From Streptantibioticus ferralitis (lineage in GTDB: Bacteria; Actinomycetota; Actinomycetes; Streptomycetales; Streptomycetaceae), in assembly GCF_029223525.1 (NCBI RefSeq), contig NZ_JARHTQ010000019.1:62001-126000 (forward strand): a stretch of 64,000 bases of DNA, in the 5' to 3' direction. Position numbers and translations under genes: made by a program. This document shows, piece after piece, positions 1,909 to 64,000 of the stretch (position 1 is the stretch's first letter; every line of letters begins with the position of its first letter). The notes under the pieces are model-generated. The model was not told the DNA's origin and ran no database searches. It was given only the letters and a program-made list of their open reading frames with translations.

Positions 1909-2432
1909 CGCTGGCCGGCGGCCTGTGGGTGCCCTGCCTCGATCCCGCGGGACGCGAAGCACCGCAGTGCCTCCACGACGTCGGCCTGCTCTTCCGGGGT
2001 CAGGACTTCGGGCTTCTCCTGTTCGAAGTGATCGGCGAGCTTGATGATGTCGTTCTTGCGGCCCTCGATGTAGACAGCGCCGTCCGCGACGTGCGTCATA
2101 GCGCGCCCGGCGAATTGCCCCGCGATCTCCTTGGCGGCCGGGACGAAGTTGATGTCGAACGCGCCGATCTGCAGGAGGACATAGCGTGAGAGCGTCCCGA
2201 CAGGCGCTCCGTTGACGAACCGGTGCTTGCTCGGGTGGGGGACCTGGAACACCTCGCCCGGGTGGACGGTGTACACCTCGTCCGCATCGGGGAGCTCGAT
2301 CGTGATCTGACCCCTTGAGCAATACATCATGTCAGACACTTCGCCGTGGAAGTGATATGGGATCGCCTTGTGGTCGAGATTGAACACACTGACCCGCAGG
2401 CCGTCCTGGTAATAGAATTCCTTCATCTCCAT
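1905..2432 (-). CDS. Cupin-domain protein
   Basis: Single-domain cupin of 175 aa. Candidate metal ligands are in motif 1 (YHFHGE, His27 and His29, Glu31) and motif 2 (VPHPSKHRFVNG, His70), so a mononuclear metal site is likely. Cupins of this size can be dioxygenases, isomerases or small-molecule-binding proteins. The tail beyond about residue 95 is helical and lacks a second cupin repeat. The start ATG at 2432 lies only 3 bp after the stop of the FAD protein gene and is preceded by AGGGGG at good spacing; an internal ATG two codons later is the alternative. The role in the pathway is unknown. Confidence 0.8.
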   Translation of the reverse strand: MEMKEFYYQDGLRVSVFNLDHKAIPYHFHGEVSDMMYCSRGQITIELPDADEVYTVHPGEVFQVPHPSKHRFVNGAPVGTLSRYVLLQIGAFDINFVPAAKEIAGQFAGRAMTHVADGAVYIEGRKNDIIKLADHFEQEKPEVLTPEEQADVVEALRCFASRGIEAGHPQAAGQR

Positions 2433-2435
2433 TGT

Positions 2436-4223: not shown

Positions 4224-4224
4224 G

Positions 4225-5505: not shown

Positions 5506-5539
5506 AGTCGTACGAGCTCCCTCTCTCCGGTTACAGAAT

Positions 5540-6298
5540 TCAGCTCGTGACGGCCTTGTACATGGCGTTCCACATCTCCAGCTGTATGTTCAGGGTCTCT
5601 GTCGCGCCATGGGCGATCTCAGCCACGTCCGCCTCGGTACGGCAGTTGTTCAGGACGCACTTCCTCGCATCGGCGGCATGGCGTTCCTCGACGCCCTCCT
5701 GGCCGACGTGGACGTTGAAGTAGATCTCCACGTTGTCGACGAACTCGGACTTGGGCAGCTCGTTGTTGCTGTTGCGGAACGCCGTACGGCACACTTGCAG
5801 CATTTTGTCGGCGTGGGACTCCAGGGCCATCGCGACGCCCAGCATGCGGTGGTAGTTGGCGCCGATCAGCTCCCGGGTGCGCTCCCGGTAGGCCAGCGTC
5901 TCGGGGATGACCAGGCTGCTGTTGCGCGCCTCCTTCACGAGCAGCGGCGGGAGGCCGAACTCGACCTGGCCGTGCCGGTTGTGGGCGTTCTCCATCAGTA
6001 CCTCGTGGCAGGCGGCAGCCTGGCCGTTCCCGGCTTCCTCGTTGAGGATGTAGGAGAACAGGACCAGCGTGTCACGGTCATCGTTGGCGGCCGCCTGGGC
6101 GCACACGTAAGCGATGCCCTTGACCGTGCCCTCGGTCCGCTGGAAGAAGTTCGCCCGGTGGAAGTCGTAGGTCTGGCTGTTCCACGGCGTCTTTTCGAGG
6201 AGCTTGAAGTAGTCGTTGTCGTAGACGACGTGTCGCTCGAGCTCGTCCATGAGCGCGGTGACCTTGTCGTGAATTGCGGTTGCAGTGCTTGCCGTCAT
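5540..6298 (-). CDS. Haem-oxygenase-like diiron oxidase (HDO/CADD-like)
   Basis: An all-helical protein of 252 aa resembling the haem-oxygenase-like diiron oxidase superfamily, whose members oxidise amino acids and fatty acids using O2. Candidate iron ligands are Glu87/Glu88 (NEEAG), His98, Glu160 (ALESH), His197, Glu204 and His207 (in NVHVGQEGVEERHA). The last cluster has H-x6-E-x2-H spacing instead of the common H-x3-D/E-x2-H. The ATG at 6298 was chosen for a GGGA 6 nt upstream; ATG 6310 and 6364 are alternatives. It is the first gene of the operon and probably performs the defining oxidation, such as N-oxygenation or C-C cleavage. Family call is good, reaction unknown. Confidence 0.75.
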   Translation of the reverse strand: MTASTATAIHDKVTALMDELERHVVYDNDYFKLLEKTPWNSQTYDFHRANFFQRTEGTVKGIAYVCAQAAANDDRDTLVLFSYILNEEAGNGQAAACHEVLMENAHNRHGQVEFGLPPLLVKEARNSSLVIPETLAYRERTRELIGANYHRMLGVAMALESHADKMLQVCRTAFRNSNNELPKSEFVDNVEIYFNVHVGQEGVEERHAADARKCVLNNCRTEADVAEIAHGATETLNIQLEMWNAMYKAVTS

Positions 6299-6687
6299 AT
6301 TGTTTCCCATTTCACGCAGGTTTGAAGCGTGGCCAAAAATTGCAGGGATTGACGCACGATCCACTGGATTAGTCTTCTACCGACGCCGTCGACCGGGTGC
6401 GACCACCATCAGCTGCTGCCGTGGTGACGGGCATTCTGACGGAATGCCATGAAGAGCCGAGGTGCGGCTCAGTCAAAACCAAAGGAATGCATGTGCCTCT
6501 TCCTCGGCGAAGGCAGACAGATCCCTGCAGGAAATCCGGTCTTCCGAAAGAGAAGCCACAATGTCCCCGGTGCTTTGGCTTGATCCACTGTGCTGCAAGG
6601 GCCGTTACAGGGCCAGTCGCAGATCGGCCAACGGAGCCCTCTCCAGGTTGGCCGGTTTTCGGGCTTGCGGTTGGCCGTGGCCGCGGC
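6299..6687. other. Upstream region of the biosynthetic operon
   Basis: No gene recognised. This must hold the promoter of the minus-strand diiron oxidase operon. I see no clear operator. Towards the right it merges into decayed transposase sequence. Confidence 0.4.
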
Positions 6688-7095
6688 ATGCCGGTGGACG
6701 TGGGCAAGCGGAAGCCGTACCCGAGCGACCTGCCGGATGAAGCATGGGAGCTTATACGGCCTGGGGGTTGATCTGGGAGGCACGGCATTCGTCGGCCGAC
6801 GGGAACGAAGCTGGGCACGAGGCGCGGGAGATCTTCAACTCGACCTGCGATTCGGCCCGGACCGGCTGCCAGTGCGGTATCCGACCCCCTTTTCCCGCCA
6901 CACCCGCCATGTAATAGTCAGTGCTTTTGCCTTGTGGTACGTGCTGCCTTGCCCGTTTGCGCAGCCATGGCTTCACTTCACCGAAAACCTCCACGACCTG
7001 CGGCGCCGGCGAGATCGGGAGAGCCAGGGACGGTGGATGGACCCCAACGCGGTCGTCGTCGATGCCGGCCGGGTGCATGCCTCGCGAGTGGTCGC
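6688..7095 (+). pseudogene. IS5-family transposase remnant
   Basis: Broken transposase. The start VGKRKPYPSDLPDEAWELIRP is the typical N terminus of IS5-family (DUF4096) transposases in Streptomyces and is cut by a stop at 6771. Further family signatures follow in other frames: REIFNSTCDSARTGCQ near 6830-6895, then LHDLRRRRDRESQGRWMDPNAVVVDAGRVHA near 6975-7090, here quoted only by key parts. At least two frameshifts and stops separate them, so it cannot make a protein. It directly abuts the IS701-like fragment. Confidence 0.6.
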
Positions 7096-7283
7096 AGAAC
7101 GTCGATCCAGCAGAGGGCTGAGCGGCTGCCGGATGGCGACATGCGGTCCTTGCAGCAGTTCGTGAACCAACCGCCGTGCGTCCACACCGCGGTGTTGCGG
7201 GCGGTGGTCGCCAAGACAGTGCCTGTGGTCGATGCCGCGGTGTGGGTGATCGACGACGTGTCGTTCCCCAAGGCGCCGTGCGT
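7090..7283 (+). pseudogene. IS701-family transposase fragment
   Basis: A fragment of about 65 codons. ERLPDGDMRSLQQFVNQ and AVWVIDDVSFPK are hallmarks of IS701-like transposases (the DDE domain begins around VIDD). Both the start and the C-terminal two thirds are absent. It is fused without spacer to the IS5 remnant on the left and to a reversed ISL3 fragment on the right, where homology stops at about 7283. Confidence 0.65.
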
Positions 7284-7455
7284 AGACGTGGCCTTTGCGC
7301 AGGGCGAAGTCGTCCACGCCAAGGACGCGGGGCGTGGACGGTGGCGGATCGGGCAGTGAACGGATCAGCCGGAGCAGGGTGGAGCGGCTTGCGGCGGCTT
7401 CGAAGACCGCAGCCAACTGGGCGCCAGCCCGGCCCGCCAGCATGAGCGTTGCCAC
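7284..7455 (-). pseudogene. ISL3-family transposase fragment, reversed
   Basis: Minus-strand fragment with AGRAGAQLAAVF, SRSTLLRLIRSLPDP and VLGVDDFALRKGHVY, the start of the catalytic domain of ISL3-family transposases (first Asp in GVDD). Homology ends at the junction with the IS701 fragment. It points against the other ISL3 piece a few dozen bases to the right, which implies an inversion or two separate insertions. Confidence 0.6.
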
Positions 7456-7489
7456 GGGCGAGCGTGCTCACAGGATCGGCGACGCGTCG

Positions 7490-7646
7490 GGAGCTGATCT
7501 CCGGGTCTGACCGGATGCCGCTGGTGTCGCCGTTCAGCTCGGGTGCGGTGGAGGAACAGGTGAACCGGATCAAGATGTTGAAGCGGCAGATGTTCGGCCG
7601 GGCCGGTATCGACCTCCTGCGCAAGCGTGCCCTCCTGGCCGGGTGA
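7490..7646 (+). pseudogene. ISL3-family transposase C-terminal fragment
   Basis: Plus-strand tail of an ISL3 transposase. SSGAVEEQVNRIKMLKRQMFGRA and LLRKRALLAG are the characteristic C-terminal sequence (key parts SSGxVE, NRIK, KRQMFGRA) and end at a natural TGA. The rest of this copy is missing. Confidence 0.65.
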
Positions 7647-7991
7647 CCCGGGCCGCTTTCAGTATGGACAGTGACCGTTCGTCAGCCCAGCACCAAAAGT
7701 GATCGGCCAGCGACTGTGCCCCGCCGCCACCGCGTCCTGCTGCCGCCACGCGCGATCGCGCCCTACCACCCGATCCGTACGGTCACAGCCGCCACACACA
7801 GCGAACCGGACCAGGCCTCTCCTCGCGCGCGACCGGGGGAATGCCAGGGGAACAGCAGGGGAGCACCAATCACGCAGGACCCTTGAAACCCAAGGGCTCT
7901 CCCCCTCGCTCCCCCGCCCCATGTGCGCACCGTGTGCGCACCAAAATGCCCTCCAAACCACGTTTCCGAAGTTCAGAGGGCATTTACCGCG
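7647..7991. other. Gene-free stretch next to tRNA-Ala
   Basis: No recognisable protein. It contains two tandem GTGCGCAC palindromes at 7923-7930 and 7934-7941, 11 bp apart, matching the pair near the left end of the window, and the terminator of the tRNA gene. It may be the border of an island integrated at the tRNA; no integrase is visible. Confidence 0.35.
7944..7985 (-). terminator. Hairpin downstream of tRNA-Ala
   Basis: Perfect 10-bp inverted repeat AAATGCCCTC / GAGGGCATTT with a 22-nt loop, lying 6 nt past the tRNA 3' end on its strand and ending in a short T run. Confidence 0.55.
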
Positions 7992-8064
7992 TGGAGCCTA
8001 GGGGAGTCGAACCCCTGACATCTGCCATGCAAAGACAGCGCTCTACCAACTGAGCTAAGGCCCC
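7992..8064 (-). tRNA. tRNA-Ala (TGC)
   Basis: A 73-nt cloverleaf. The acceptor stem GGGGCCT / AGGCTCC, D-arm GCTCAGTTGGTAGAGC, anticodon loop TTTGCAT (anticodon TGC) and T-arm GGGGTTCGACTCCCC are all readable on the minus strand. The 3' CCA is not encoded. Confidence 0.95.
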
Positions 8065-8203
8065 TCGGCGTGCGGCGGAGCACGCCGCAGACCAGGGTAC
8101 CGGGTGATCGGGGGAATCATGTACACGGTTTTGACCGGAGCGGGGGTGGGCCGGGCTCCGTAGGATGGTTTTGCTGTATTCGCAGCCGCAAACAGGAGCT
8201 GGG

Positions 8204-8755
8204 ATGGACACCTCGCCGCCGCAGGACGCCGCCGTGCGGGCCCAGGAGCAGCAACGTGAGTGGTACGGGGAACCGCTGGGGGATCTGTTCCGGCGGCTGA
8301 TCGGGGACCTCGGGCTGAACCAGGCGCGGCTCGCCTCGGTCCTCGGGCTGTCCGCGCCCATGCTGTCGCAGTTGATGAGCGGGCAGCGGGCGAAGATCGG
8401 CAATCCGGCGGTGGTGCAGCGGTTGCAGCTGCTGCGGGAGCTGTCCGCGCAGGTGGCGGACGGTGTGGTGACGGCCGCTGAGGCGGCCGTCCGGATGGAG
8501 GAGATCCGTGAGGCGGCCGGGTCCGCGCTGCTGGGCAGCACCACGCAGTCCACGGGCGGCCGGCCGGCGCCGTCGCCGCGCCGGGTGGTGCGGGAGATCC
8601 AGTCGTTGCTGCGCTCGCTCGGCTCCGCCGACGAGCTGCTCGGCGCGGCAGGCGCCCTCGCCGACAGCCATCCGCAACTGGCAGAGTTCCTTCGTGTGTA
8701 CGGCGCGGGGCGCACGGACGACGCGGTGGCGCACTTCGAGGCGCATCAGGACTGA
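8204..8755 (+). CDS. Helix-turn-helix DNA-binding protein
   Basis: A 183-aa protein with an N-terminal helix-turn-helix: LGLNQARLASVLGLSAPMLSQLMSGQ fits the XRE/Cro type (key parts LNQARLASVLG and SAPMLSQLMSG). A helical C-terminal half follows and contains an E/A-rich MEEIREAAG segment. The start ATG at 8204 has GGAG about 5 nt upstream; an in-frame upstream ATG is not preceded by a ribosome binding site. It lies 25 bp before a Ser/Thr kinase gene on the same strand, so the two are probably cotranscribed and functionally linked. Targets are unknown. Confidence 0.85.
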   Translation: MDTSPPQDAAVRAQEQQREWYGEPLGDLFRRLIGDLGLNQARLASVLGLSAPMLSQLMSGQRAKIGNPAVVQRLQLLRELSAQVADGVVTAAEAAVRMEEIREAAGSALLGSTTQSTGGRPAPSPRRVVREIQSLLRSLGSADELLGAAGALADSHPQLAEFLRVYGAGRTDDAVAHFEAHQD

Positions 8756-8780
8756 ACACTAGGGCTGAGGGGCGCGCGGC

Positions 8781-9953
8781 ATGGGTGAGGTTTTCGCGGG
8801 CCGCTACGAACTGGTCGACCCGATCGGGCGCGGCGGCGCGGGAGCGGTCTGGCGGGCCTGGGATCTGCGGCGGCGCAGATACGTGGCGGCCAAGGTGCTC
8901 CAGCAGGGCGACGCGCACTCGCTGCTGCGCTTCGTCCGGGAGCAGGCACTGCGGATCGACCATCCGCATGTGCTGGCCCCCGCCAGCTGGGCGGCCGACG
9001 ACGAAAAGGTGCTGTTCACCATGGACCTGGTGCGCGGCGGGTCGTTCGCGCACCTGGTCGGGGACTACGGGCCGCTGCCGCCACGGTATGTGTGCGTGCT
9101 GCTCGACCAACTGCTGGCCGGGCTGACCGCGGTGCACGCGGAGGGCGTGGTGCACCGGGACATCAAGCCCGCCAACGTCCTGTTGGAGGCGACCGGAACG
9201 GGTCGGCCGCATGTGCGGCTCTCCGACTTCGGCATCGCGATGCGCAAGGGCGAGCCACGGCTCACCGACACCAACTACGTGGTGGGTACTCCGGGTTACT
9301 TCGCTCCCGAGCAACTGATGGGCGCCGAGCCGGACTTCCCCGCGGATCTCTACGCGGTGGGCCTGGTCGCCCTCTATCTGCTCACCGGGCGCAAGCCGGA
9401 TTCCCAGGCGCTGGTCGAGCGGTTCTTGGAGTACGGCGTTCCGAACGCCCCGCAGGGCGTTCCGGAGCCGCTGTGGCAGGTCATCGCCACGCTGCTGAAC
9501 CCGAACCCGGAGGCCAGGTTCCGTACCGCCACGGGTGCGCGCAAGGCGTTGGCGTCGGCCGTGGAGCTGCTGCCCGAGCCGGACATCGACGACGAACCCA
9601 TCGAGGTCTTCGACCAACTCGGGCCGCTGCCCGAGGGCTTCGGCCCGGACGGTCCGATCCGGGCCGCCCCACGAATCGTCGAGACCGAGGAGTTCCCCGA
9701 GAGCGGCGGCTTCCGGCTGCCCGCACCGCAGGCCCGGGTCCGTACCGCGAGCGGAGCCGTCCCGCGGCAGCCCGCGGCCTCGGCGGCCGGGCCGCTCGCC
9801 GGGGCCACCCGGCCGTACACCTCGGTGCCGGTGGCCGACGAACCGGCACCGGTCCGCAGGGCCCCCGGCCCCAGGGCCAGGGTCGTGGTGCCGGTGCTGG
9901 TGGTCGCGGTGCTCTGCTTCGCGGTGGGCATCTGGGCGCTCACCGCGGCGTAG
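8781..9953 (+). CDS. Membrane-anchored Ser/Thr protein kinase
   Basis: Hanks-type kinase of 390 aa. The glycine loop IGRGGAGAVW, Lys38 (VAAKVL), the catalytic loop HRDIKPAN with Asp127, DFG at 149-151 and the VGTPGYFAPEQ activation segment are all present, so it should be active. After the kinase domain (about 1-270) comes a proline/alanine-rich linker and a single transmembrane helix near residues 365-388. Almost nothing follows the helix, so there is no external sensor domain. It is placed between the HTH gene and the convergent secreted-protein gene. The phosphorylation target is unknown. Confidence 0.9.
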   Translation: MGEVFAGRYELVDPIGRGGAGAVWRAWDLRRRRYVAAKVLQQGDAHSLLRFVREQALRIDHPHVLAPASWAADDEKVLFTMDLVRGGSFAHLVGDYGPLPPRYVCVLLDQLLAGLTAVHAEGVVHRDIKPANVLLEATGTGRPHVRLSDFGIAMRKGEPRLTDTNYVVGTPGYFAPEQLMGAEPDFPADLYAVGLVALYLLTGRKPDSQALVERFLEYGVPNAPQGVPEPLWQVIATLLNPNPEARFRTATGARKALASAVELLPEPDIDDEPIEVFDQLGPLPEGFGPDGPIRAAPRIVETEEFPESGGFRLPAPQARVRTASGAVPRQPAASAAGPLAGATRPYTSVPVADEPAPVRRAPGPRARVVVPVLVVAVLCFAVGIWALTAA

Positions 9954-9959
9954 CGGACG

Positions 9960-11201
9960 TCACCTTCTGCGGGCCCGTAGCGCCCACACGGCGAGACCGG
10001 CCACCAGCAGGGTGCCCGTCCCCAGTCCGCCGTAGCCGACGGCGAGCAGCATGCGGTTCGGGGCACCGGCGCCGTCGCCGCCCGCCGCCGCGCTCGCGGT
10101 GACTCCGAATCCGGCCTTGGCGGCGTCTCCCGAGTACCGGGGGCCGGGCTGCCGGGTGCCGGTCACGGCGAGCCGCAGGGTGACGTCCACGCCGCCGGTG
10201 GTGTACCGCGCGACATCAGGGTGCAGGCTCAGCTGCACGTAGTACCAGCCTGCCACCGGCGCGGAGTTGATCCTGACATCCGCGGACTCCCGGTTGAGAT
10301 AGTCCACCGTGGGCGTCTGGGCGGTAACCGCAGCCTGGGCGCCGCTGTACGAGGCATCGGCGCCGCTCACATGTCCGCGCGCCGGGTTGTACATCACGAG
10401 GCGGACCCCACTGGCGGAGAAGCCGCTGCCGGACTTGTCGGCGTTGGCGAACTCGGCGGTGCTGGTGAGCCGTTGGCCCCAGTCGACCGGCACCCGGTAG
10501 AAGTGCGTTTCACCGGGCGCCAGATGGTCCTGGTACACCCCGGTCCCGGGCAGCCGGGCGCCGCCGCCGTCCATGTCCGGGTCGCCCACCACCGGCCTGG
10601 GCGAGCCGCTGACCTCCGGGGGTTTTGCCGTTTCATAGCTCTGGACGGGCCCGGAGCCCACCCCGCTCACCGGGGGCTCGGACATATACCGGATGTCCAG
10701 CGGCCAGTCCTCGGTGCTGGACGCGGTCGCGCTGACGCGCTGGACGGACAGCAGGTAGTCACCGGCCTGCTGGCAGGTGGCGTCCAGCTTGATGGTGCGC
10801 AGTACCGCGCCGCCCACCGGTTGCATCGCGCCGTCCGCGCCGAACTGCGCGTCGTACGCGTCGCACTCGGTCCCGTCCCTGCCGAGTAACTTCAGGCTGA
10901 CGCCGTCCAGGAAGCCGACCCTGCTGCCGTGCGGGGGCAGCGCGAAGACCGACAGATAGGCGGAGGACAGGGCGTCCAGCCGTACGGCGTAGTACTTGGT
11001 GCCGCCCTTGGCGAGGGTGTCCCGGTAGGTGTGTCCGGCCGTCAACTGCGGTGCGGTGCTGCTCTTCGCCGTTCCGGCGATCCGTTCACCGTGTGGCACC
11101 CAGGCCGTACCGGACGTGTCCGCCACCGCGCTCGCGCCCGGCAGCACAAGGGCCACCGACACCGCGAGCGCCGCCAGGATGCCTAGCCGGTCCCTTGCCA
11201 C
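9960..11201 (-). CDS. Secreted, C-terminally anchored protein of unknown function
   Basis: A 413-aa protein with a classical signal peptide (MARDRLGILAALAVSVALVLPGASA), quoted here in parts as MARDRLGIL and LVLPGASA. A large extracytoplasmic region follows, rich in beta-type sequence with repeated DxxYxDxLAxGxxxYYxV-like segments near residues 60 and 230 (HTYRDTLAKGGTKYYAV, YQDHLAPGETHFYRV). This suggests two related domains. The C terminus has one transmembrane helix and an RARRR stop-transfer tail. It is convergent with the Ser/Thr kinase gene 6 bp away. I do not recognise a functional family. Confidence 0.8.
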   Translation of the reverse strand: MARDRLGILAALAVSVALVLPGASAVADTSGTAWVPHGERIAGTAKSSTAPQLTAGHTYRDTLAKGGTKYYAVRLDALSSAYLSVFALPPHGSRVGFLDGVSLKLLGRDGTECDAYDAQFGADGAMQPVGGAVLRTIKLDATCQQAGDYLLSVQRVSATASSTEDWPLDIRYMSEPPVSGVGSGPVQSYETAKPPEVSGSPRPVVGDPDMDGGGARLPGTGVYQDHLAPGETHFYRVPVDWGQRLTSTAEFANADKSGSGFSASGVRLVMYNPARGHVSGADASYSGAQAAVTAQTPTVDYLNRESADVRINSAPVAGWYYVQLSLHPDVARYTTGGVDVTLRLAVTGTRQPGPRYSGDAAKAGFGVTASAAAGGDGAGAPNRMLLAVGYGGLGTGTLLVAGLAVWALRARRR

Positions 11202-11277
11202 GCCCCACCCCTCGATCTTTGCTTACGCGAAGATATTGATGTGCGTATGCGAATTCAATAGTGAGTTCAATAGCGAA

Positions 11278-11302
11278 GCCCCGACCGCGAGGCGGTCGGG
11301 GC
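11278..11302 (-). terminator. Hairpin downstream of the DLW-39 gene
   Basis: Perfect 11-bp inverted repeat GCCCCGACCGC / GCGGTCGGGGC with a 3-nt loop, 26 bp past the stop of the microprotein gene. It separates that gene from the secreted-protein gene. Confidence 0.65.
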
Positions 11303-11327
11303 CCGGCTGAGACTACGACTACGGGGC

Positions 11328-11468
11328 TCAGGCGCTCGTGCCGGAACCTGCCGGTACGGAGTCGGTCGCCTCCGTCCACAGGTCCTGCTCGGCGCGGTCC
11401 GCCTGGATCTGGCGGTACACGAGGAGCCCGCCGATGGCGGCCAGTGCGACCAGGAGAAACTTCTTCAC
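11328..11468 (-). CDS. DLW-39 family microprotein
   Basis: A 46-aa protein starting VKKFLLVALAAIGGLLVYRQ, with one N-terminal transmembrane helix followed by a short acidic tail containing the invariant-looking DLW (EQDLWTEATDSV). This matches the actinobacterial DLW-39 family, named for that motif, which is usually encoded next to gyrA and tRNA-Ile. It starts at a GTG with GAGG upstream. Function is unknown; it is probably a small membrane protein. Confidence 0.8.
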   Translation of the reverse strand: MKKFLLVALAAIGGLLVYRQIQADRAEQDLWTEATDSVPAGSGTSA

Positions 11469-11585
11469 CGCGCGACCTCGTCCTTCTTACGTTGGGAGTC
11501 CTCCGATGGGCCCGATGATACACACCGGTTGATATAGAACGGTGACCTAGGCTCGACTCGGTCAACTCCCGTCAGCGACAAGCCG

Positions 11586-11621
11586 AAGGGGCCGGCCACT
11601 CGATTGAGTGGCCGGCCCCTT
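11586..11621 (-). terminator. Strong terminator after tRNA-Ile
   Basis: Perfect 16-bp inverted repeat (arms 11586-11601 and 11606-11621) around a 4-nt loop, with AAGG at one end and CCTT at the other. It lies just downstream of the tRNA-Ile gene on its strand. Confidence 0.8.
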
Positions 11622-11629
11622 CGCGCTGG

Positions 11630-11703
11630 TGGGGCTAACAGGACTTGAACCTGTGGCCTCTTCCTTATCAGGGAAGCGCTCTAACCGTCTGAGCTATAGC
11701 CCC
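11630..11703 (-). tRNA. tRNA-Ile (GAT)
   Basis: A 74-nt cloverleaf on the minus strand. Acceptor GGGGCTA / TAGCCCC, D-arm GCTCAGACGGTTAGAGC, anticodon loop CTGATAA (anticodon GAT) and T-arm CAGGTTCAAGTCCTG are visible. The 3' CCA is encoded in the following three bases (11627-11629). Confidence 0.95.
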
Positions 11704-11764
11704 GCGCTGCACCGAAAGATTAGCGCACAGGTGGCGCTGTCCCAAAATCGATAGCGGAGGGCGG

Positions 11765-12388
11765 TTACTCGTCCTCGGCGAGGGTGAGCTCCACACCGCC
11801 GACGAAGCCCGCCGTCAGGTTGTAGAGGAACGAGCCCAGCGTGGCCAGCGCCGTCATCAGCACCACGTCGATCACCGCGATGACCGAAGTGAACGCGACG
11901 ACATGCGAGAGCGACAGGAAGGACTGCAGGTCGAAGCCGTGCTGCTGGCCCGAGCCGGTCGCCTCGCTGATCGTGCCGCCGACCGTGGAGAAGACGCCCA
12001 GCGCGTCCAGCACCATCCACAGCACGGACACCGCGACGATCGTGCAGACGCCGAGCGCGATGGAGAACAGGAAGCTGACCTTCATCACCGACCAGGGGTC
12101 GGCCTTGGAGACCCGCAGCCGGGCGCTGCGGGTGCGCGGCGTAGCCCGGACGGCCGCCGGGCGCGGCTTGCGCACACCGCCCTGTACGGGCAGTCCGGCG
12201 ACGCCCTGCGGCGGCTGGTAGGCCTGCGGCGGGTGGTGCGGCTGGGCCGGGTGCGCCCGGCCCGCCTGCGTCCCCGTGCCGTCCGCGGCGGAGCCACGGG
12301 CACCGCCTACCGGGGCGGCCTCGGTGGCGGCTCCCGGCCGTCCGTCCGCCCCTGCGCCGCCCGCGGCAGCGCCCGTGGCTCCACTCAC
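11765..12388 (-). CDS. DUF3566 transmembrane protein
   Basis: A 207-aa protein. The first ~90 residues are low-complexity Ala/Gly/Pro, then RLRVSKADPWSVMKVSFLFSI begins the conserved DUF3566 domain with two transmembrane helices (about 102-125 and 160-185). The family is found next to gyrA across actinobacteria, and several members are linked to cell-envelope or division proteins. The gene starts 3 bp after the gyrA stop, so it is the distal gene of the gyrB-gyrA operon. Function unproven. Confidence 0.85.
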   Translation of the reverse strand: MSGATGAAAGGAGADGRPGAATEAAPVGGARGSAADGTGTQAGRAHPAQPHHPPQAYQPPQGVAGLPVQGGVRKPRPAAVRATPRTRSARLRVSKADPWSVMKVSFLFSIALGVCTIVAVSVLWMVLDALGVFSTVGGTISEATGSGQQHGFDLQSFLSLSHVVAFTSVIAVIDVVLMTALATLGSFLYNLTAGFVGGVELTLAEDE

Positions 12389-12391
12389 GGT

Positions 12392-15010
<2,619 letters not shown>

Positions 15011-15059
15011 TGCTGGTCAAATCCTTTCGCGCTACAGGCAGTTCGGGGGCCGACTCGAC

Positions 15060-17375
<2,316 letters not shown>

Positions 17376-56723: not shown

Positions 56724-57169
56724 AGGCTTAGGATAATCTTCCACAGGTAATAGATGCAATGCGCTTGTGGTCATTACTGTTGGTGGCGCTGAGTGATCGG
56801 GTCCGCGCCGTTTGTCGTGATCTTGCGCCAACCGGGAAAGTTTTTCTCCTGCACAGCCAGTGGATGATGAACGTGCAGGTCAGATGGTGTGTGATCGAGG
56901 CGCCGGAGTCTTGTCCACAGCGCTTTCCCCCGCCCTGTACACAGGTTTGGCGGGCTTCTCCACAGCCTTGCGTCGTTCATCCACATGGCCTGTGGATAAC
57001 CATCTTGGCTGACGGGGGCCGGGGCCCTACCGTAGTCCGGCGCCCGCCTTCCGTCCGGTCCTCGCACTCGACGCGCCGCAAGCGGAGTCGCGTGTCTTTT
57101 TGTCAGAGCCGTGCCGTAAGAAAGAGGGGCACGGACCGGGGTCCGAAGGACCGGGAGGAGGTGACGGGG
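56724..57169. promoter_or_regulatory. Divergent MATE / dnaB promoter region
   Basis: A 446-bp gap. It holds the DnaA-box cluster at 56911-56999; no gene recognised. The frame continuing upstream of dnaB is open but has no conserved sequence. Confidence 0.5.
56911..56999. promoter_or_regulatory. Cluster of five DnaA boxes upstream of dnaB
   Basis: TTGTCCACA at 56911-56919 and TTATCCACA (minus strand, 56991-56999) are perfect. CTGTACACA (56935-56943), TTCTCCACA (56956-56964) and TCATCCACA (56977-56985) differ by a base or so. Five boxes lie in 89 bp, 170-260 bp upstream of the dnaB start. Confidence 0.7.
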
Positions 57170-58675
57170 GTGAGCCAGCCTGAGCCCGCGGACGACCACT
57201 GGGGGGACGCACCGCCGATCGATCCGCCGTTCCCCGACGGTCCCGGCGACCGGCTCCCGGCGGCTCGCTACCGCCGCACTGACCGTGACGGCGGCCGCGA
57301 CGGGACGAGGGACAACGGGCGGGACGGCGGCGGTTGGGCAGAAGGCGGCTTCGAGCGGGTCCCCCCGCAGGACCTCGACGCCGAGCAGTCGGTGCTCGGC
57401 GGCATGCTGCTCTCCAAGGACGCCATCGCCGATGTCGTCGAGGTGCTCAAGGGTGCGGACTTCTACCGCCCGGCCCACGAGACGATCTACACCGCGATCC
57501 TCGACCTCTATGCCAGGGGCGAACCGGCCGACCCCATCACCCTCGCCGCCGAGCTGACCAAACGCGGCGAGATCACCCGGGTCGGCGGCGCCGCGTACCT
57601 GCACACGCTGGTCAACGCGGTCCCCACCGCCGCCAACGCCGAGTACTACGCGGAAATCGTCCATGAACGCGCGGTCCTGCGCCGACTGGTCGAGGCGGGC
57701 ACCCGCATTACCCAGATGGGGTACGCGGCCGACGGAGACGTCGACGAGATCGTCAACCGGGCCCAGGCCGAGATCTACGCGGTCACCGAGCAGCGCACCT
57801 CGGAGGACTACCTCCCACTGAGCGAGATCATGGAGGGCGCCCTCGACGAGATCGAGGCGATCGGCTCCCGCAGCGGTCAGATGACCGGCGTCCCCACCGG
57901 CTTCACCGACCTCGACGCGCTCACCAACGGCCTCCACCCGGGCCAGATGATCGTCGTCGCCGCGCGCCCCGCGATGGGTAAGAGCACCCTGGCGCTGGAC
58001 TTCGCCCGCTCCTGCTCCATCCAGTACGGCCTGCCCAGCGTCTTCTTCTCCCTCGAAATGGGCCGCAACGAGATCGCGATGCGTCTGCTGTCCGCCGAGG
58101 CGCGGGTAGCGCTGCACCACATGCGCTCCGGCAACATGACCGACGACGACTGGACCAGGCTGGCCCGCCGCATGCCGGAGGTCTCGGCCGGACCGCTGTA
58201 CATCGACGACTCGCCCAACCTGTCGATGATGGAGATCCGCGCCAAGTGCCGCCGTCTCAAACAGCGCAACGACCTGCGGCTGGTCGTCATCGACTACCTT
58301 CAGCTGATGCAGTCCGGCGGCTCACGCCGACCCGAGAGCCGCCAGCAGGAGGTCTCGGAGATGTCCCGTAACCTCAAGCTGCTGGCCAAGGAGCTGGAAG
58401 TCCCGGTCATCGCCCTCTCGCAGCTCAACCGTGGCCCGGAGCAGCGCACCGACAAGAAGCCGATGGTCTCGGACCTTCGTGAATCGGGTTCGATCGAGCA
58501 GGACGCGGACATGGTCATCCTGCTGCACCGCGAGGACGCCTACGAGAAGGAGTCCCCGCGCGCGGGCGAAGCCGACCTCATCGTCGCCAAGCACCGAAAC
58601 GGCCCCACGGCCACCATCACCGTGGCGTTCCAGGGCCACTACTCGCGCTTCGTGGACATGGCGGGGAACGTCTGA
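57170..58675 (+). CDS. dnaB: Replicative DNA helicase DnaB
   Basis: A 501-aa hexameric helicase. A ~55-residue Asp/Arg/Gly-rich extension precedes the N-terminal collar domain (PPQDLDAEQSVLGGMLLS). The RecA-like C-terminal domain has Walker A PAMGKSTLALD, Walker B VVIDYLQLMQ, and the C-terminal RFVDMAGNV. The GTG at 57170 has GGAGG about 8 nt upstream; a GTG three codons earlier is the alternative. The last codons are followed within 5 bp by the TGT end of a mobile element. No intein is present. Confidence 0.96.
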   Translation: MSQPEPADDHWGDAPPIDPPFPDGPGDRLPAARYRRTDRDGGRDGTRDNGRDGGGWAEGGFERVPPQDLDAEQSVLGGMLLSKDAIADVVEVLKGADFYRPAHETIYTAILDLYARGEPADPITLAAELTKRGEITRVGGAAYLHTLVNAVPTAANAEYYAEIVHERAVLRRLVEAGTRITQMGYAADGDVDEIVNRAQAEIYAVTEQRTSEDYLPLSEIMEGALDEIEAIGSRSGQMTGVPTGFTDLDALTNGLHPGQMIVVAARPAMGKSTLALDFARSCSIQYGLPSVFFSLEMGRNEIAMRLLSAEARVALHHMRSGNMTDDDWTRLARRMPEVSAGPLYIDDSPNLSMMEIRAKCRRLKQRNDLRLVVIDYLQLMQSGGSRRPESRQQEVSEMSRNLKLLAKELEVPVIALSQLNRGPEQRTDKKPMVSDLRESGSIEQDADMVILLHREDAYEKESPRAGEADLIVAKHRNGPTATITVAFQGHYSRFVDMAGNV

Positions 58676-58680
58676 CGCGG

Positions 58681-58912
58681 TGTAGGTTCTCAAGATCCGC
58701 GCCATATTCTCAGCGGCGACGCCATATCGACCACACATGTGGCGTCAGCGCTGAGAACGCGCTGGTCGCCGCCTCGGACGTTCCCGCCCCGCCGGAGCGA
58801 ACCGCGCGGATATGGGCCGGAGTTGAGAATCGCGTGGGCCGCATGGCGAGATGTTCCGTGAGAACACCCAGGTCACGGCGCCGGTATATGGCGCGGGCGC
58901 TGAGAACCTACA
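58681..58912. mobile_element. Cargo-less Tn7-like mini-element or relic
   Basis: A 232-bp gene-free segment with perfect 12-bp terminal inverted repeats TGTAGGTTCTCA / TGAGAACCTACA. Inside are repeats of TTCTCA-N8-GCCATAT: two tandem copies at the dnaB-side end (58687-58707 and 58707-58727) and four spaced inverted copies at the other (58737-58757, 58810-58829, 58842-58864, 58886-58906; spacings 7-11). This resembles the compact and dispersed TnsB-site arrays of Tn7's two ends, joined without cargo. GCGG flanks both sides. It is 6 bp after the dnaB stop. Confidence 0.7.
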
Positions 58913-58916
58913 GCGG

Positions 58917-58998
58917 TGTAGGGTCTCAAGAACGGGGCCATATTCTCAGGGCTGACTGCATATCAGGGCCATATATGGCCTTGTGCTGAGACCTGCAG
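58917..58998. repeat. TnsB-site array at the element terminus
   Basis: After the two tandem repeats comes a 14-bp palindrome GGCCATATATGGCC (58967-58980) and then TGAGACCTGCA (58987-58997), an imperfect inverse of the terminus. The array overlaps the presumed tns promoter, so the transposase may repress its own operon here, as in Tn7. Confidence 0.6.
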
Positions 58999-59105
58999 TT
59001 CAGCGTACTCACTCATTCGGGTGGTACGAGTCGCTTCTGCCCACTCTCCTCACGCCAGGGTGGGCATCGTGGGCGTACAGGGCCTCACTCGGCTGGGGGT
59101 ACGCC

Positions 59106-59825
59106 ATGGACAGTCCCACCGCAGTAGTCAGTGTTCGCTCCCGAAATGGCAAGAGTGTCGAGGACTTGTCGTGGATGACGGCGTCTGTCGACCTGCTGGG
59201 GTCGGCGGCCCCGTGGCGCACGTTCCGTTGGTATCGCGGGCAGAAGCACTACTCCGGGGCGTACTGGTCGGCGACGATGCGGGACCACGTGATCTATGAG
59301 TCGCGGCTTGAGTTGGCGAGGCTTCTCTTTGCTGACTTCGATCCGTCCGTACACCGCATCGTGGCTCAGCCGTTCTTGATGAAGACCGTGGTGGCGGACA
59401 AGGTCCGCAAGCACATCCCTGACTATCTGCTGATCACCGGCCAGGGGCCCGTGGTGGTGGATGTCAAGCCACGTCAACGGCTGTCCATGCCCGAGGTGGC
59501 GTCCACCTTCGACTGGACCCGGCGTGTGGTGGAGTCTCGCGGCTGGCAGTACGAGGTTTGGAGTGAGCCGCCGGAGGCGGAACTGGAGAACATCCGCTTT
59601 CTGGCCGGCTATCGGCGGGACTGGTTGCTCTCACCCGAGATCCTGGATGAGCTTCGCCGAGCTGACCTTGACGGTGTCTTGTTGGGTGAGGCAGCCCGGT
59701 GTCTGCCTGGTTGGCCCGAGATCCACGTTCGTGCCGCGGTCTATCACCTGCTCTGGGTGCATGATCTTCACACGGAACTCAGCCGACCCCTCAGCCCTTC
59801 ACGGGTGTTGCGGCAGGCAGCGTGA
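59106..59825 (+). CDS. tnsA: TnsA-like heteromeric transposase endonuclease subunit
   Basis: A 239-aa protein with a restriction-endonuclease fold, which in Tn7 cuts the 5' ends of the transposon. Catalytic residues are in the TnsA order: Glu65 (VIYESRLELARLL), Asp106 (KHIPDYLLITG) and Asp119-x-Lys121 (VVVDVKPRQRL). The C-terminal half is helical and is the likely TnsC-contact domain. ATG 59106 follows a GGGGGT; a longer frame to 58983 would start inside the end repeats and was rejected. It is the first gene of the tnsABC-tniQ operon and overlaps tnsB by 4 bp. Confidence 0.88.
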   Translation: MDSPTAVVSVRSRNGKSVEDLSWMTASVDLLGSAAPWRTFRWYRGQKHYSGAYWSATMRDHVIYESRLELARLLFADFDPSVHRIVAQPFLMKTVVADKVRKHIPDYLLITGQGPVVVDVKPRQRLSMPEVASTFDWTRRVVESRGWQYEVWSEPPEAELENIRFLAGYRRDWLLSPEILDELRRADLDGVLLGEAARCLPGWPEIHVRAAVYHLLWVHDLHTELSRPLSPSRVLRQAA

Positions 59826-61954
59826 GCAGGGCCGGGGCCCGGGTGGGGGTCGGAACGCGTTTCCGCTACGACGGGGAGACCGTCGAAGTGGTGGAGATGG
59901 CCGCGACCACTGCGGGGAATGAGGTGGTTCTCAAGGACGGCCAGGGTCGGCTTCTGCGCCTGTCGTTGAAGGAGCTGCTGTTCTCCGACCGGGCGGCCGT
60001 GATTCCCGACCAGCCCGGCCCAGCGGCTGACGACGCCGAGGAGATCGCCTCGGTGGTGCTGGACCAGCTGCACGAAGGTGAACGGCTTCAGATTCTCGAA
60101 CGGGCCGCACATGTCCGTGAGGTGCTGACGGGTTTCCGCTCTGGAAGTCCTGAGCGGGTCCACGACGGGGAACCTCGTCGCGATTATGCGCCCGGCGGGC
60201 CGGTGGAGCCCAAGTACGCCGCCAAGGCGATGGAACTTGGGGTTCATGTCCGCACCGTCAAGCAGTGGGTTGCGGACTTCCGGCGGCACGGAGAGGCCGG
60301 ACTGGTTGCGAAGAGGAAGCAGTCTGGCGGGGCGGCGGCTGGAGCTGATGAGCGGTGGGTGGAGACGGCTTTGGAGGTGATGGTCGAGCACACCGGAGAG
60401 TCGAAGCCCTCGCGCAAGATGGTGATTGAACGCACCCGGGCACGTGTCATCGCCCGGTATGGCCCTGACGCGGTCCGTCTGCCGAGCCAGGCAACGGCTT
60501 ACCGGATTCTGGCGGAGCTGGAGTGTCGCCATCCGTTGTTCCGGCTGAGTACGAAGCGGAACCGGGATATCGCGGATCGGCCGGAGGGTCCGTACGGCAA
60601 GTTGCGGCCGACGCGGCCGGGTGAGTACCTGTTGATGGACTCCACCCGCCTGGACGTCTTCGCGTTCGACCCGCTGACGCTCAAGTGGGTGCAGGCCGAG
60701 TTGAGTGTCGGGATGGATTGGTACACCCGCTGCATCACGGGGATCCGGCTGACGCCGGTCTCGACAAAGGCAGTGGATGTCAGCGCGGTGCTCTTCCAGT
60801 CGTTCCGGCCGAGGCCGGCGGGGCGGGACTGGCCGCGGCACGCGGTCTGGCCCGAGCACGGCATCCCCCGCACCGTCCTGGTCGACGTCGAGGGCGCCAG
60901 CGGACCGGGCCTGGCCTCGCCACCCCTGGTTCCCGAGACGCTGGTCGTTGACCACGGGAAGGTCTACGTCTCGGAGCATCTGACCAGCGTCTGCCGCCGG
61001 ATGGGCATCTCCATCCAGCCGGCCCGGCTCCGGACGGGCCGCGACAAGGGGCCGGTGGAGCGCTATTTCCGGACCCTGCGGGAGGGGCTGCTGCAGGTGC
61101 TGCCCGGCTACAAGGGGCCCGACATCTACTCGCGGGGAGAGAACCCGGAGGATGACGCGTTCTTCTTCCTCGACGAGCTTGAGGCGATCATCCGGGAGTG
61201 GACCGCGTCGGTGTATCACTGCAGGCCGCACTCCAGCCTGGTCGATCCGGCGCTGCCGGGACTGCGGATGTCTCCGGCGAAGATGTTCGAGCACGGCATG
61301 GCGCGGGCGGGCTACATCGAAGCTCCCCGGGACCCGAACCTCGCCTACGAGTTCCTGAAGACCGAGTGGCGCACGATCCAGCACTACGGTGTCGAGATTG
61401 GCCGTCGCCGCTACAGCGGCCCCGGTCTGAAGGGCCTGAGTGGTATCCGGAGTCCGTACGACGGCCCGGTCAAGAATGGCTGGCCGTTCCAGGTGGACCC
61501 CGACGACATCACACGGATCTACTTCCGTGATCCGGCTACCCGGGCCTGGCACACGCTGGTCTGGGAGCACGCGCCGTCGACCGAGATGCCGCTGAGCGAG
61601 GACGCGTTGACATTCGCCCGGCAGCTGGCCGCCTCGAAGTATCGCTTTCCCGACGACCGGCTCGCCGTCGCTGACTTGCTTCAGCGGTGGAACCTCGGAC
61701 TGGGCACCACGATCGCCGAGCGGCGCATGGCCCTGCGACTCTCACGTGAGCAGGCCGCCATCGAACTTCCGGAGAGTGAGGCGGAGACGGTCGTCTCGCT
61801 TCCGTCCGTACGCAAGGCCCTCGGCCAGGACGAGGAGGCTGCGGAAGCGCAGGAGCCCGAGGTGGCGACGGAGACGGGGGATGACGACGCGGCCGACTTG
61901 GATGACCTCGCTGAGGAGAACGACTTCTACGCCGATGCTCTGGAGGACGTGTGA
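59822..61954 (+). CDS. tnsB: TnsB-like DDE transposase (Mu/rve type)
   Basis: A 710-aa transposase. Residues about 115-255 contain winged-helix DNA-binding domains (e.g. KYAAKAMELGVHVRTVKQWV). The rve catalytic core has Asp273 (LLMDSTRLDV), Asp377 (VVDHGKVYVSEH) and Glu413 (KGPVERYFRTLREGL), giving a D-D(35)-E spacing. A Mu-type C-terminal beta domain and acidic tail follow (residues about 515-710). In Tn7 TnsB binds the end repeats and makes the 3' cuts and strand transfer. The start GTG overlaps the tnsA stop, and the stop overlaps tnsC. Confidence 0.93.
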   Translation: MSRAGARVGVGTRFRYDGETVEVVEMAATTAGNEVVLKDGQGRLLRLSLKELLFSDRAAVIPDQPGPAADDAEEIASVVLDQLHEGERLQILERAAHVREVLTGFRSGSPERVHDGEPRRDYAPGGPVEPKYAAKAMELGVHVRTVKQWVADFRRHGEAGLVAKRKQSGGAAAGADERWVETALEVMVEHTGESKPSRKMVIERTRARVIARYGPDAVRLPSQATAYRILAELECRHPLFRLSTKRNRDIADRPEGPYGKLRPTRPGEYLLMDSTRLDVFAFDPLTLKWVQAELSVGMDWYTRCITGIRLTPVSTKAVDVSAVLFQSFRPRPAGRDWPRHAVWPEHGIPRTVLVDVEGASGPGLASPPLVPETLVVDHGKVYVSEHLTSVCRRMGISIQPARLRTGRDKGPVERYFRTLREGLLQVLPGYKGPDIYSRGENPEDDAFFFLDELEAIIREWTASVYHCRPHSSLVDPALPGLRMSPAKMFEHGMARAGYIEAPRDPNLAYEFLKTEWRTIQHYGVEIGRRRYSGPGLKGLSGIRSPYDGPVKNGWPFQVDPDDITRIYFRDPATRAWHTLVWEHAPSTEMPLSEDALTFARQLAASKYRFPDDRLAVADLLQRWNLGLGTTIAERRMALRLSREQAAIELPESEAETVVSLPSVRKALGQDEEAAEAQEPEVATETGDDDAADLDDLAEENDFYADALEDV

Positions 61955-63069
61955 GCGAGGAGCGTGTTCCTGAGCCGGACAGCTTCGCCCTGTCGCGGAA
62001 GGAGGACTTCAAGGCGTTCGCCGAGGGCCCTCGCCGCAGTCGGCCCGATCTGCTGACCCGCAAGCAGCTGAAGTCCCTGGACACGCAGGCACGGGCGGAC
62101 TACGACCGGCAGCGCCGGAAGTGGCACGCGAACATCGGACCGGTCAAGACACCACAACTGGTGGAGCTCCACGAGGACTTGTGGGACATCGTCGACAGCA
62201 ACGAGCAGGATGGCGACAAGGCCAAGGGGGCGGTGGCCGTCGACGCGTTCCCGGGGCTGGGCAAGACGACCTCGGTGCTTGCCTTCGCCCGTGACTTCCA
62301 CCAGCGGGAGATCGAGGAGTCGGGTCCGTTCACGAGCCAGGGGCACGAACGGATCCCGGTCTGCCGGGTTGGGCTGACCGGGAACACCGGGATGAAGGAC
62401 CTGAACCGGGCCATGCTGGAGTTCTTCGGCCACCCCGGACAAGGGCGGGGCACCACCGCCCAGTTCGGACGGCGGGTTCTGGACTGCGTGTTGTCCTGCG
62501 ATGTCCGACTGGTAGTTCTGGACGATCTGCACTTTTTGAAATGGGGACAGAAGAGCGGCATCGAGGTGAGTAATCACCTGAAGTGGATCGCCAACGAGTT
62601 CCCGGTGACCTTGTTGATGGTGGGGGTCGAGCTCGCGGAGAAGGGCCTGTTCGGCGAGGGAACGAACGGGCGCGACACGGCTCTGGCCCAGACCGGCCGT
62701 CGCACCACCCGCTTGGGACTGCGTCCGTTCACCATCGACGCGGAGGCCGGGCGCCGTGAGTGGCGGCAGATGCTGCTGGCCCTCGAACAGCGTGTCGTGC
62801 TCACCGACAAGTACCCCGGCATGCTCGCGGACGACCTGTCGGACTACCTCTTCGCCCGCAGCACCGGACACATCGGTTCGCTGATGACGCTGATCAACCG
62901 TGGCTGCCAGCGGGCGGTTCGCACCGGCGTGGAACGGCTGGACCAGGAGCTGATGGACCGGGTGAAGAACGATGAGGCGTCCGAGGCAGCCCGCCTGGAA
63001 CTTCAGGCCGCGCTAGAGAAGAAGCGGCTGACCAGCCGTCCGCGGCCCCGGGGCCGACGAGCCGCATGA
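61951..63069 (+). CDS. tnsC: TnsC-like AAA+ transposition regulator
   Basis: A 372-aa AAA+ ATPase. The Walker A is in VDAFPGLGKTTSVLAFARD, the Walker B LVVLDDLHFL, and sensor-1-like FPVTLLMVGVEL follows. In Tn7 TnsC forms rings on target DNA that link the target selector to TnsAB and enforce target immunity. The start overlaps the tnsB stop and its stop overlaps the tniQ start, both 4-bp overlaps, so the four proteins are probably made in fixed ratio. Confidence 0.92.
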   Translation: MSEERVPEPDSFALSRKEDFKAFAEGPRRSRPDLLTRKQLKSLDTQARADYDRQRRKWHANIGPVKTPQLVELHEDLWDIVDSNEQDGDKAKGAVAVDAFPGLGKTTSVLAFARDFHQREIEESGPFTSQGHERIPVCRVGLTGNTGMKDLNRAMLEFFGHPGQGRGTTAQFGRRVLDCVLSCDVRLVVLDDLHFLKWGQKSGIEVSNHLKWIANEFPVTLLMVGVELAEKGLFGEGTNGRDTALAQTGRRTTRLGLRPFTIDAEAGRREWRQMLLALEQRVVLTDKYPGMLADDLSDYLFARSTGHIGSLMTLINRGCQRAVRTGVERLDQELMDRVKNDEASEAARLELQAALEKKRLTSRPRPRGRRAA

Positions 63070-64000
63070 GGCCGTCGGCCCGCACCCTGCCGATCCGGCT
63101 GCCGCCACTGCCCGGCGAGGCACTGGACTCCTGGCTGGAAGCGACGGCCAGGCGGATGGACACCACACTCGGTGACGTCCTGCTGCACTTCGGGTTCCCG
63201 GTCCGGCAGCGGGCCGGAAACCAGTTCCGGGACATCCCAGCGGACTGGACGATTTTCCTCGACGAGCGGTTGACCGCTGCCGTCGCGCACGCCACCGGCA
63301 CGGTCCCGGAGGTGGTCACTGCCATGACCTTGGCGCACTATGACGGACGGGCCCTGCAGATGAGTCCCGAAGGCCGGGCTGTGACACGGCATGTCCTATG
63401 GGGACGCGGACGGGGATCCCGGTTCTGCCCGGACTGCCTCCACTCCAGCGGCGGACGCTGGCAGTTGTCCTGGAGGCTCGGCTTCTCCTTCGCCTGCACC
63501 CAGCACCGTCGCCTGCTGGCGGACCGCTGCCCGCACTGCGGGCGGGTTCCGCGGCAACGGCCCCGCTCCGGGCGGTCCGTTCCCCAGCCTGAACTCTGCG
63601 GCAATCCGCCGATCCGCCCCGGCGGTCCGGTTACGGCTGGCTGCGGCGCCGATCTGACCTGCGCTTCGACGCTTCGCCTGCCTCCTGGCCACCCGGTTCT
63701 CACGGCCCAGGACCGGACGATGGAGATCATCGATGGGGCAACGGTGGCCTTCGGCCCCTACCGGGATGTTCCCCAGCCGGCACCGGCGGTGCTGGCCGAC
63801 ATCCGGGCCTTGGGCATCCGCGTCCTGAGCAGCCTTCCCGCCGCCGTCCTGCGGGAACAGATACCGGCCGACATCGCAGAAGCGCACCTCGCCACCGATC
63901 CGGTCTCCCCGCACCCCGAACAGGCGGCGGACCGCCCGGGGTTCATGGCCCCACCCCGAGCCGCAGATGCCGCCGCCGCGGTCACCATGGCCCTGGGCAT
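63066..64000 (+). CDS. tniQ: TniQ/TnsD-like target-selection protein (partial)
   Basis: The first ~311 codons of a TniQ family protein. The N terminus RTLPIRLPPLPGEALDSWLEATARR is the TniQ signature, and a zinc-binding segment has FCPDCL ... CTQHRRLLADRCPHCG (CxxC, His, CxxC). The TniQ core is followed by additional sequence cut off by the window end. In Tn7 the TniQ relative TnsD binds the attachment gene. Here that gene may be dnaB, though the DNA-binding part is not in view. The ATG overlaps the tnsC stop. Confidence 0.88.
   Translation, partial: MRPSARTLPIRLPPLPGEALDSWLEATARRMDTTLGDVLLHFGFPVRQRAGNQFRDIPADWTIFLDERLTAAVAHATGTVPEVVTAMTLAHYDGRALQMSPEGRAVTRHVLWGRGRGSRFCPDCLHSSGGRWQLSWRLGFSFACTQHRRLLADRCPHCGRVPRQRPRSGRSVPQPELCGNPPIRPGGPVTAGCGADLTCASTLRLPPGHPVLTAQDRTMEIIDGATVAFGPYRDVPQPAPAVLADIRALGIRVLSSLPAAVLREQIPADIAEAHLATDPVSPHPEQAADRPGFMAPPRAADAAAAVTMALG

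Follow-up and report, generated by a model that had tools for sequence, protein, structure and literature searches.

A 232-bp cargo-less element with two Tn7-like ends behind dnaB in Streptantibioticus ferralitis, very probably a non-autonomous mini-transposon

What is the short stretch of DNA that separates the dnaB gene of Streptantibioticus ferralitis from a complete Tn7-like transposon, and how did it get there? The window, that is, the whole stretch of 64,000 nucleotides analysed here (positions 62001-126000 of contig C21 of this genome, G000), holds at this place a 232-bp unit which has both ends of a transposon and next to no interior. We propose that it is most probably a non-autonomous, MITE-like mini-transposon of the TnsABC-TniQ family, an internal-deletion derivative handled by the Tns proteins of a full element. 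The features that bear on this reading are, in window coordinates:

56759-58675, plus strand: dnaB reading frame, TGA stop at 58673-58675; its 3' end is the attachment site.
58677-58680, no strand: GCGG, left flanking direct repeat (CGCGG when read as 5 bp).
58681-58912, plus strand: cargo-less mini-element, 232 bp, with a perfect 12-bp terminal inverted repeat and a match to both end profiles.
58681-58757, plus strand: left end, about 77 bp, with TnsB-type sites in direct orientation at 58687-58707 and 58707-58727 and inverted at 58737-58757.
58754-58912, plus strand: right end (about 155 bp) with spacer; inverted TnsB-type sites at about 58810-58829, about 58843-58864, and 58886-58906.
58913-58916, no strand: GCGG, right flanking direct repeat (AGCGG as 5 bp, one base off).
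58917-64000 and beyond the window to contig position 129189, plus strand: complete Tn7-like element, 8,273 bp; left-end profile match at 58917, right end at L004:9189.
59106-59825, plus strand: tnsA of the adjacent element (Pfam Tn7_TnsA-like_N; frame open from 58983, likely start 59106).
59822-61954, plus strand: tnsB of the adjacent element (Pfam HTH_28, with Mu-transpos_C slightly below cut-off; full-length relatives at most 89% identical).
61951-63069, plus strand: tnsC of the adjacent element (Pfam TniB and AAA_22).
63066-64000, plus strand: start of tniQ of the adjacent element (whole gene L004:5066-7723, 885 aa; Pfam TniQ).

From the dnaB stop onwards the order is thus CGCGG, the 232-bp unit, GCGG and the left end of the adjacent element. 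An earlier note on this DNA had described perfect 12-bp terminal inverted repeats at 58681-58912 with GCGG abutting both ends, and both observations are exact: TGTAGGTTCTCA begins at 58681, its reverse complement TGAGAACCTACA finishes at 58912, so that both termini read TGTAGGTTCTCA inwards, and GCGG is found on either side. When the repeat is examined for the 5-bp target duplication that the note had proposed to look for, it is exact over 4 bp only (four of five bases), the fifth differing between CGCGG and AGCGG. Its insertion point, 5 bp past the dnaB stop, is a fixed position downstream of a conserved gene. Pfam DnaB domains start at residue 202 of the dnaB frame, whose true start is probably further inside than 56759. 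As for the internal anatomy, an asymmetric array of two plus four TnsB-like sites had been claimed; there are indeed six, but homology splits them three and three. Matches of G297 and G183 cover mini positions 1-76 and 1-77, those of G143 and G109 cover 74-228 and 74-231, and the adjacent element's left end also has a third, inverted site (near 58973-58993), all of which assigns 58737-58757 to the left end.

The two halves of the unit are homologous to the ends of full elements. Its left end and that of the adjacent element share 76% identity over 67 bp; the unit's right end aligns with full-element right ends in an alignment of 20, and the CAGGTCAC motif lies 44 bp from its right terminus, in agreement with the 44-45 bp seen in numerous right ends of this family. 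Profiles built from other genomes only (56 left and 15 right ends, the training sets containing some genomes twice and units being collapsed by end sequence) find left ends in the window at 58681 (E 9.3e-11) and 58917 (E 9.8e-8) and a single right end, at 58818-58912 (E 1.9e-9). Two weak minus-strand left-end matches (E 0.028 and 0.1) fall on the element's own inverted sites, and a search of 72,556 plasmid records returned one 76-bp left-end match. Short, bounded by terminal inverted repeats, free of a transposase gene and sharing its ends with an autonomous partner, the unit has the makeup of a MITE, and its TnsB-type site arrays, present at both ends in inverted orientation, are those of a Tn7-like element. 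Since it has no tnsA, tnsB, tnsC or tniQ genes, it is not a complete Tn7-like transposon, nor is it a TIME, a class with Tn3-family terminal repeats, as its ends match Tn7-like profiles and adjoin tnsABC-tniQ.

The place of insertion is a shared one. In many Actinobacteria, this Tn7-like family frequently attaches at the 3' end of dnaB. TnsB relatives were collected at 77 named loci; among 394 genomes of the same bacterial family, 166 have TnsB relatives at E<=1e-30, many of which are remote (about 33% identity). Both dnaB and tnsA were found in 60 loci, a number that counts some genomes twice and includes the locus of the window, and in 57 of these a pattern search places a TGTAGG-type end at most 25 bp behind the dnaB stop. 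A strict left-end pattern search for the site behind dnaB hit 69 of the 394 genomes; by eye, 27 of these are dnaB and 42 show only an unrelated coding motif. The distance from the dnaB stop to tnsA is mostly 140-255 bp in the other 59 loci, in contrast with 431 bp here. Ten loci have longer gaps (L063, L075, L085, L090-L093, L098, L099 and L105); the right-end pattern, and with it a mini between dnaB and tnsA, was found in none of nine of them (L093 left out), and the extra length in L075 is a different mobile element, X, discussed below.

The adjacent element itself has half-sites GCCATAT on the left and TGACAC on the right. That it consists of two elements fused by deletion was considered and rejected, the half-site mismatch being uninformative because other complete elements mix half-sites too. 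Recombination in its history is possible, since its final 250 bp share 95% identity with the right end in S. gelaticus (L042) and its two flanks do not match. Near the C-terminus of its TniQ there is a LysR-type HTH (Pfam HTH_1, E 5e-14), a candidate for the part that reads dnaB. A peptide deformylase gene (L004:7698-8540, contig positions 127698-128540) is carried as cargo. Five bases (CGGTC) past this element lies a third unit (C21:129195-130839, 1,645 bp), after which CGGTC appears again as a perfect 5-bp duplication; it gave no match to the Tns proteins of the dnaB-associated Tn7-like family. Three units are therefore stacked in tandem behind dnaB, whose end has been hit at least three times in this genome, so that the estimate of at least two hits in the earlier note was too low. 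The genome has a second DnaB-like gene (C48, L142:5140-5952), 69% identical in its C-terminal part. Where family elements are stacked, the left-end half-sites of neighbours differ in 19 of 20 pairs, a figure with no power on target immunity, as random left ends share an 8-mer at a rate of 0.038; the sole exception is a pair of identical full elements in L084. At that locus (Nonomuraea antri, 2421-15727), dnaB is followed by a tandem of two near-identical full elements, each about 6.65 kb long, with 5 bp (TCTTT) between them.

Relatives of the 232-bp unit itself are fragmentary. With the unit as query, 49 of the 394 family genomes match at E<=0.001; the matches inspected were those of G297, G183, G143, G109 and G031 and then only G218, G100 and G337, and many of the others are short spacer stretches. 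External matches end near the joint between left and right ends. G143 (84%) and G109 (82%) have the mini's spacer and right end, with element X abutting the joint, and G031 matches positions 1-113, that is, the left end and the joint without the right end, as part of an array that follows a more distant DnaB-like gene. G143, G109 and, more loosely, G031 thus share the centre of the mini in the window, and to judge from sequence these pieces speak for a lineage that was already a mini. Copies of this type amount to one that is intact and three that are partial, in other genomes, and no high copy number was seen within one genome; a second intact copy was not found, the relatives being either cut (G031) or interrupted by another element (G143 and G109).

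Similar gene-less elements are present in further species of this bacterial family. Eleven cargo-less minis of 199-232 bp, the window's included, were found by both profiles, and five of them are flanked by exact 5-bp duplications: CCAGC (G127), CACCC (G192), GGCGG (G331), CGTCG (G393) and CCAAC (G143). The other six, among them the one in the window, have no exact 5-bp repeat. A 203-bp mini of S. caniscabiei (L039:20554-20756), used as a query against the 394 genomes, hit 30 of them at E<=1e-5, mostly right ends alone; copies with both ends are present in G307, G127, G252, G192, G258, G331 and G393, and one in G183 has its right end cut. These seven and the query form one layout, here called the 200-bp type, and align end to end across eight genomes with 73-88% identity. 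Their duplications are not exact in G307, G252 and L039, and the one in G258, where the left end abuts another right end, was not judged. The G331 mini sits 10 bp behind the dnaB stop, and in G192 and G393 the mini follows the stop of another frame without a Pfam match, at a distance of 7 and 5 bp respectively; the remaining minis of this type have no clear position behind a reading-frame stop. The flanks of the seven (L177-L183, 8-14 kb each) gave no match to TnsA, TnsB, TnsC or TniQ at E<=1e-5. The genome of the window has one copy of the 200-bp type, split by element X. In G292 (L186, 7274-7740), dnaB is directly followed by two tandem 232-bp minis, separated by 3 bp, with half-sites that differ from each other and no exact duplication. 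The G143 mini, 211 bp long and with CCAAC on both sides, splits a reading frame whose product we take to resemble the C-terminus of a Tn3-type transposase. In the same genome, four paired-end units are stacked behind dnaB (L223, 397-6459), with the 211-bp mini 48 bp further on; there was no match to a family Tns protein in the 13.5 kb of this locus.

Over all 63 usable paired-end units, an exact repeat of at least 5 bp is seen in 30, one of 4 bp in 6 and none in 27 (terminal offsets of -1 to +2 allowed; two contig-end rows and one 2-bp artefact dropped). Apart from that artefact, the spacing of paired ends is either 199-232 bp (11 units) or at least 898 bp, a size gap between minis and longer units that is suggestive only, as loci were often chosen for matching minis or TnsB. 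The number of minis is a lower bound, because the census was based on DNA similarity to two mini types and on end profiles over the fetched loci only.

Because minis recur in the family, several of them with duplicated target bases, it is probable that these gene-less elements spread by borrowing the enzymes of another element. The earlier note had left the choice between two transposon ends joined after loss of cargo and a mini-element moved in trans, and both fit the unit; as regards spread, the second is favoured by minis of conserved length in varied surroundings, by exact duplications in five of eleven and by the presence of the centre in three other genomes. A full element, in the mini's own history or that of an ancestor, would lose its interior by deletion, and its left end would be joined to its right end. 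In a cell that also contains a full element, the Tns proteins of the latter would then treat the product as a transposon: TnsB would bind the predicted site arrays, TnsA and TnsB would cut, and TniQ-TnsC would guide insertion to a point a few bases after the dnaB stop, where a short duplication would result.

TnsB binding and mobilisation in trans, like the identity of the mini's transposase, are what we infer from these comparisons. The mini and the left end of the adjacent element have the GCCATA half-site in common. At the right end, the adjacent element has TGACAC in place of the mini's ATATGGC, and it may therefore not be the mobiliser. Among mini-bearing genomes, G258 and G307 encode a TnsB with 85% and 75% identity, respectively, to that of the adjacent element, G331, G252, G393 and G192 have only relatives of 32-34%, and G127, G183 and G292 gave no TnsB match at E<=1e-30. 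A close TnsB is thus scarce in these genomes, which is a point against the proposed reading, and many mini copies look like leftovers of past mobilisation.

The strongest competing explanation is that a full element beside dnaB lost its interior in place, and that the joined ends are a dead remnant which never moved as a unit. This would produce the same-looking ends and flanking repeat, and end-to-end remnants do form: in G129 (L228, about 490-546), a 57-bp TGTAGG...CCTACA remnant was seen by eye directly behind dnaB. The window's mini type has a single intact copy with an imperfect duplication, and on account of the missing second copy and the four matching bases out of five the case for it is weaker than that for the 200-bp type. 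We nevertheless regard a dead remnant as unlikely, given that the centre of the mini is found in other genomes as well and that a related type spreads at many places with exact duplications. Far less probable still is that the 232 bp form a compound or duplicated left end of the adjacent full element, which the mini directly abuts, in a family where tandem end copies do occur: the mini has its own correctly oriented, profile-matching right end and its own flanking repeat, most of the other 59 loci have no such extra block, and there are minis without any neighbour. Ordinary dnaB-downstream sequence or chance repeats have a negligible probability, with neither profile matching any of 50 first-order Markov-shuffled versions of the window at E<=1, nothing in Rfam reaching E<=1 over 58600-59110, dnaB directly followed by unrelated sequence in the same-genus G002 and only by a decayed left-end-like TGTAGGTGCTCAAC start in the same-genus G001, and, in the search for the 232 bp that the earlier note had suggested, a full-length match in none of the other 393 of the 394 family genomes, only in its own.

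A mini-transposon may in turn have become a target. The third unit consists of the left and right ends of the 200-bp type around a second element, TGTCCTGTCG...GACAGGACA (C21:129279-130709 = L004:9279-10709), our element X, which here contains TetR and anthrone-oxygenase-like genes. G228 has a full X (L222:437-5430) between two copies of CAGGT, with genes for a Mu-type transposase, a TniB-type ATPase, TniQ and a TnsA-like protein that stays below the Pfam cut-off; shorter relatives without tns genes are L075:8469-9143, L220:446-936, L058:18075-19413, one in L168 and the copy in L004. By pattern search there are six distinct X left ends, and in five of the six X starts 83 or 84 bp inside a Tn7-like left end, which suggests that such ends, those of minis included, are landing sites of X. 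It lies within left ends in the third unit, L075, L168, L220 and L222, and in L058 there is no recognisable left end. Its duplications are exact in L058, L075, L220 and L222, match in four of five bases in the third unit and are not visible in L168. On this view the third unit would be X enclosed in the shell of a mini, with the perfect CGGTC duplication around the whole. Tentatively, and with somewhat less than even confidence, one could picture a system of three layers, in which full elements occupy dnaB, end-only minis spread on their enzymes and X lands in the left ends of either, a mini thus becoming a shell that carries X and its cargo. Element X would be a case of one Tn7-like transposon landing in the end of another, and with the stacked arrays one can test how a single attachment site comes to be shared by several Tn7-like elements.

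Tn7 inserts behind glmS, and asymmetric multi-site ends as well as insertion behind a conserved gene are common to Tn7 and the mini. Laboratory mini-Tn7 donors demonstrate that a pair of ends is enough if the Tns proteins are provided in trans; those donors are engineered and hold a payload, whereas the minis described here are natural and nearly without interior. Tn7 also differs in site sequences and target gene and, according to the accessible parts of PMC8649781, has three sites in one end and four in the other, whereas the mini has three in each. The same parts of that paper (Benler 2021) describe a clade of Tn7-like transposons of Actinobacteria, with TnsB-site arrays, tnsA-B-C and tniQ, of which the mini's neighbour is an example, and elements internal or adjacent to each other that result in multiple left and right ends; 'dnaB' and 'Streptomyces' were absent among the terms searched in them. 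As the search described there began from tnsB, it would not identify elements that lack this gene as such, and our minis are a warning that tnsB-based searches miss such elements. Titles and abstracts of the mainly open-access literature contained no report of Tn7-like MITEs or of the dnaB site, and 'Tn7-like' and 'miniature inverted-repeat' co-occur in the accessible text of PMC13113465 and PMC12024412. A close parallel is that of the Tn3-derived TIMEs, from which, in the portions of PMC13367494 available, the principle of end-only elements mobilised in trans is known, and which the available portions of PMC4133298 present as transposase-less ends flanked by direct repeats and thought to be mobilised in trans. 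Ends without transposase and flanking repeats are found in both, with the difference, on the basis of those portions, that TIMEs use the ends and mechanism of the Tn3 family, whereas the mini has asymmetric TnsB-type site arrays and an insertion favouring the place behind dnaB. The end-only passengers already described for insertion sequences and for Tn3 transposons would thereby extend to the targeted Tn7-like systems of Actinobacteria, which would offer minimal donor ends of natural origin, about 200 bp long, together with a recurrent attachment site behind dnaB.
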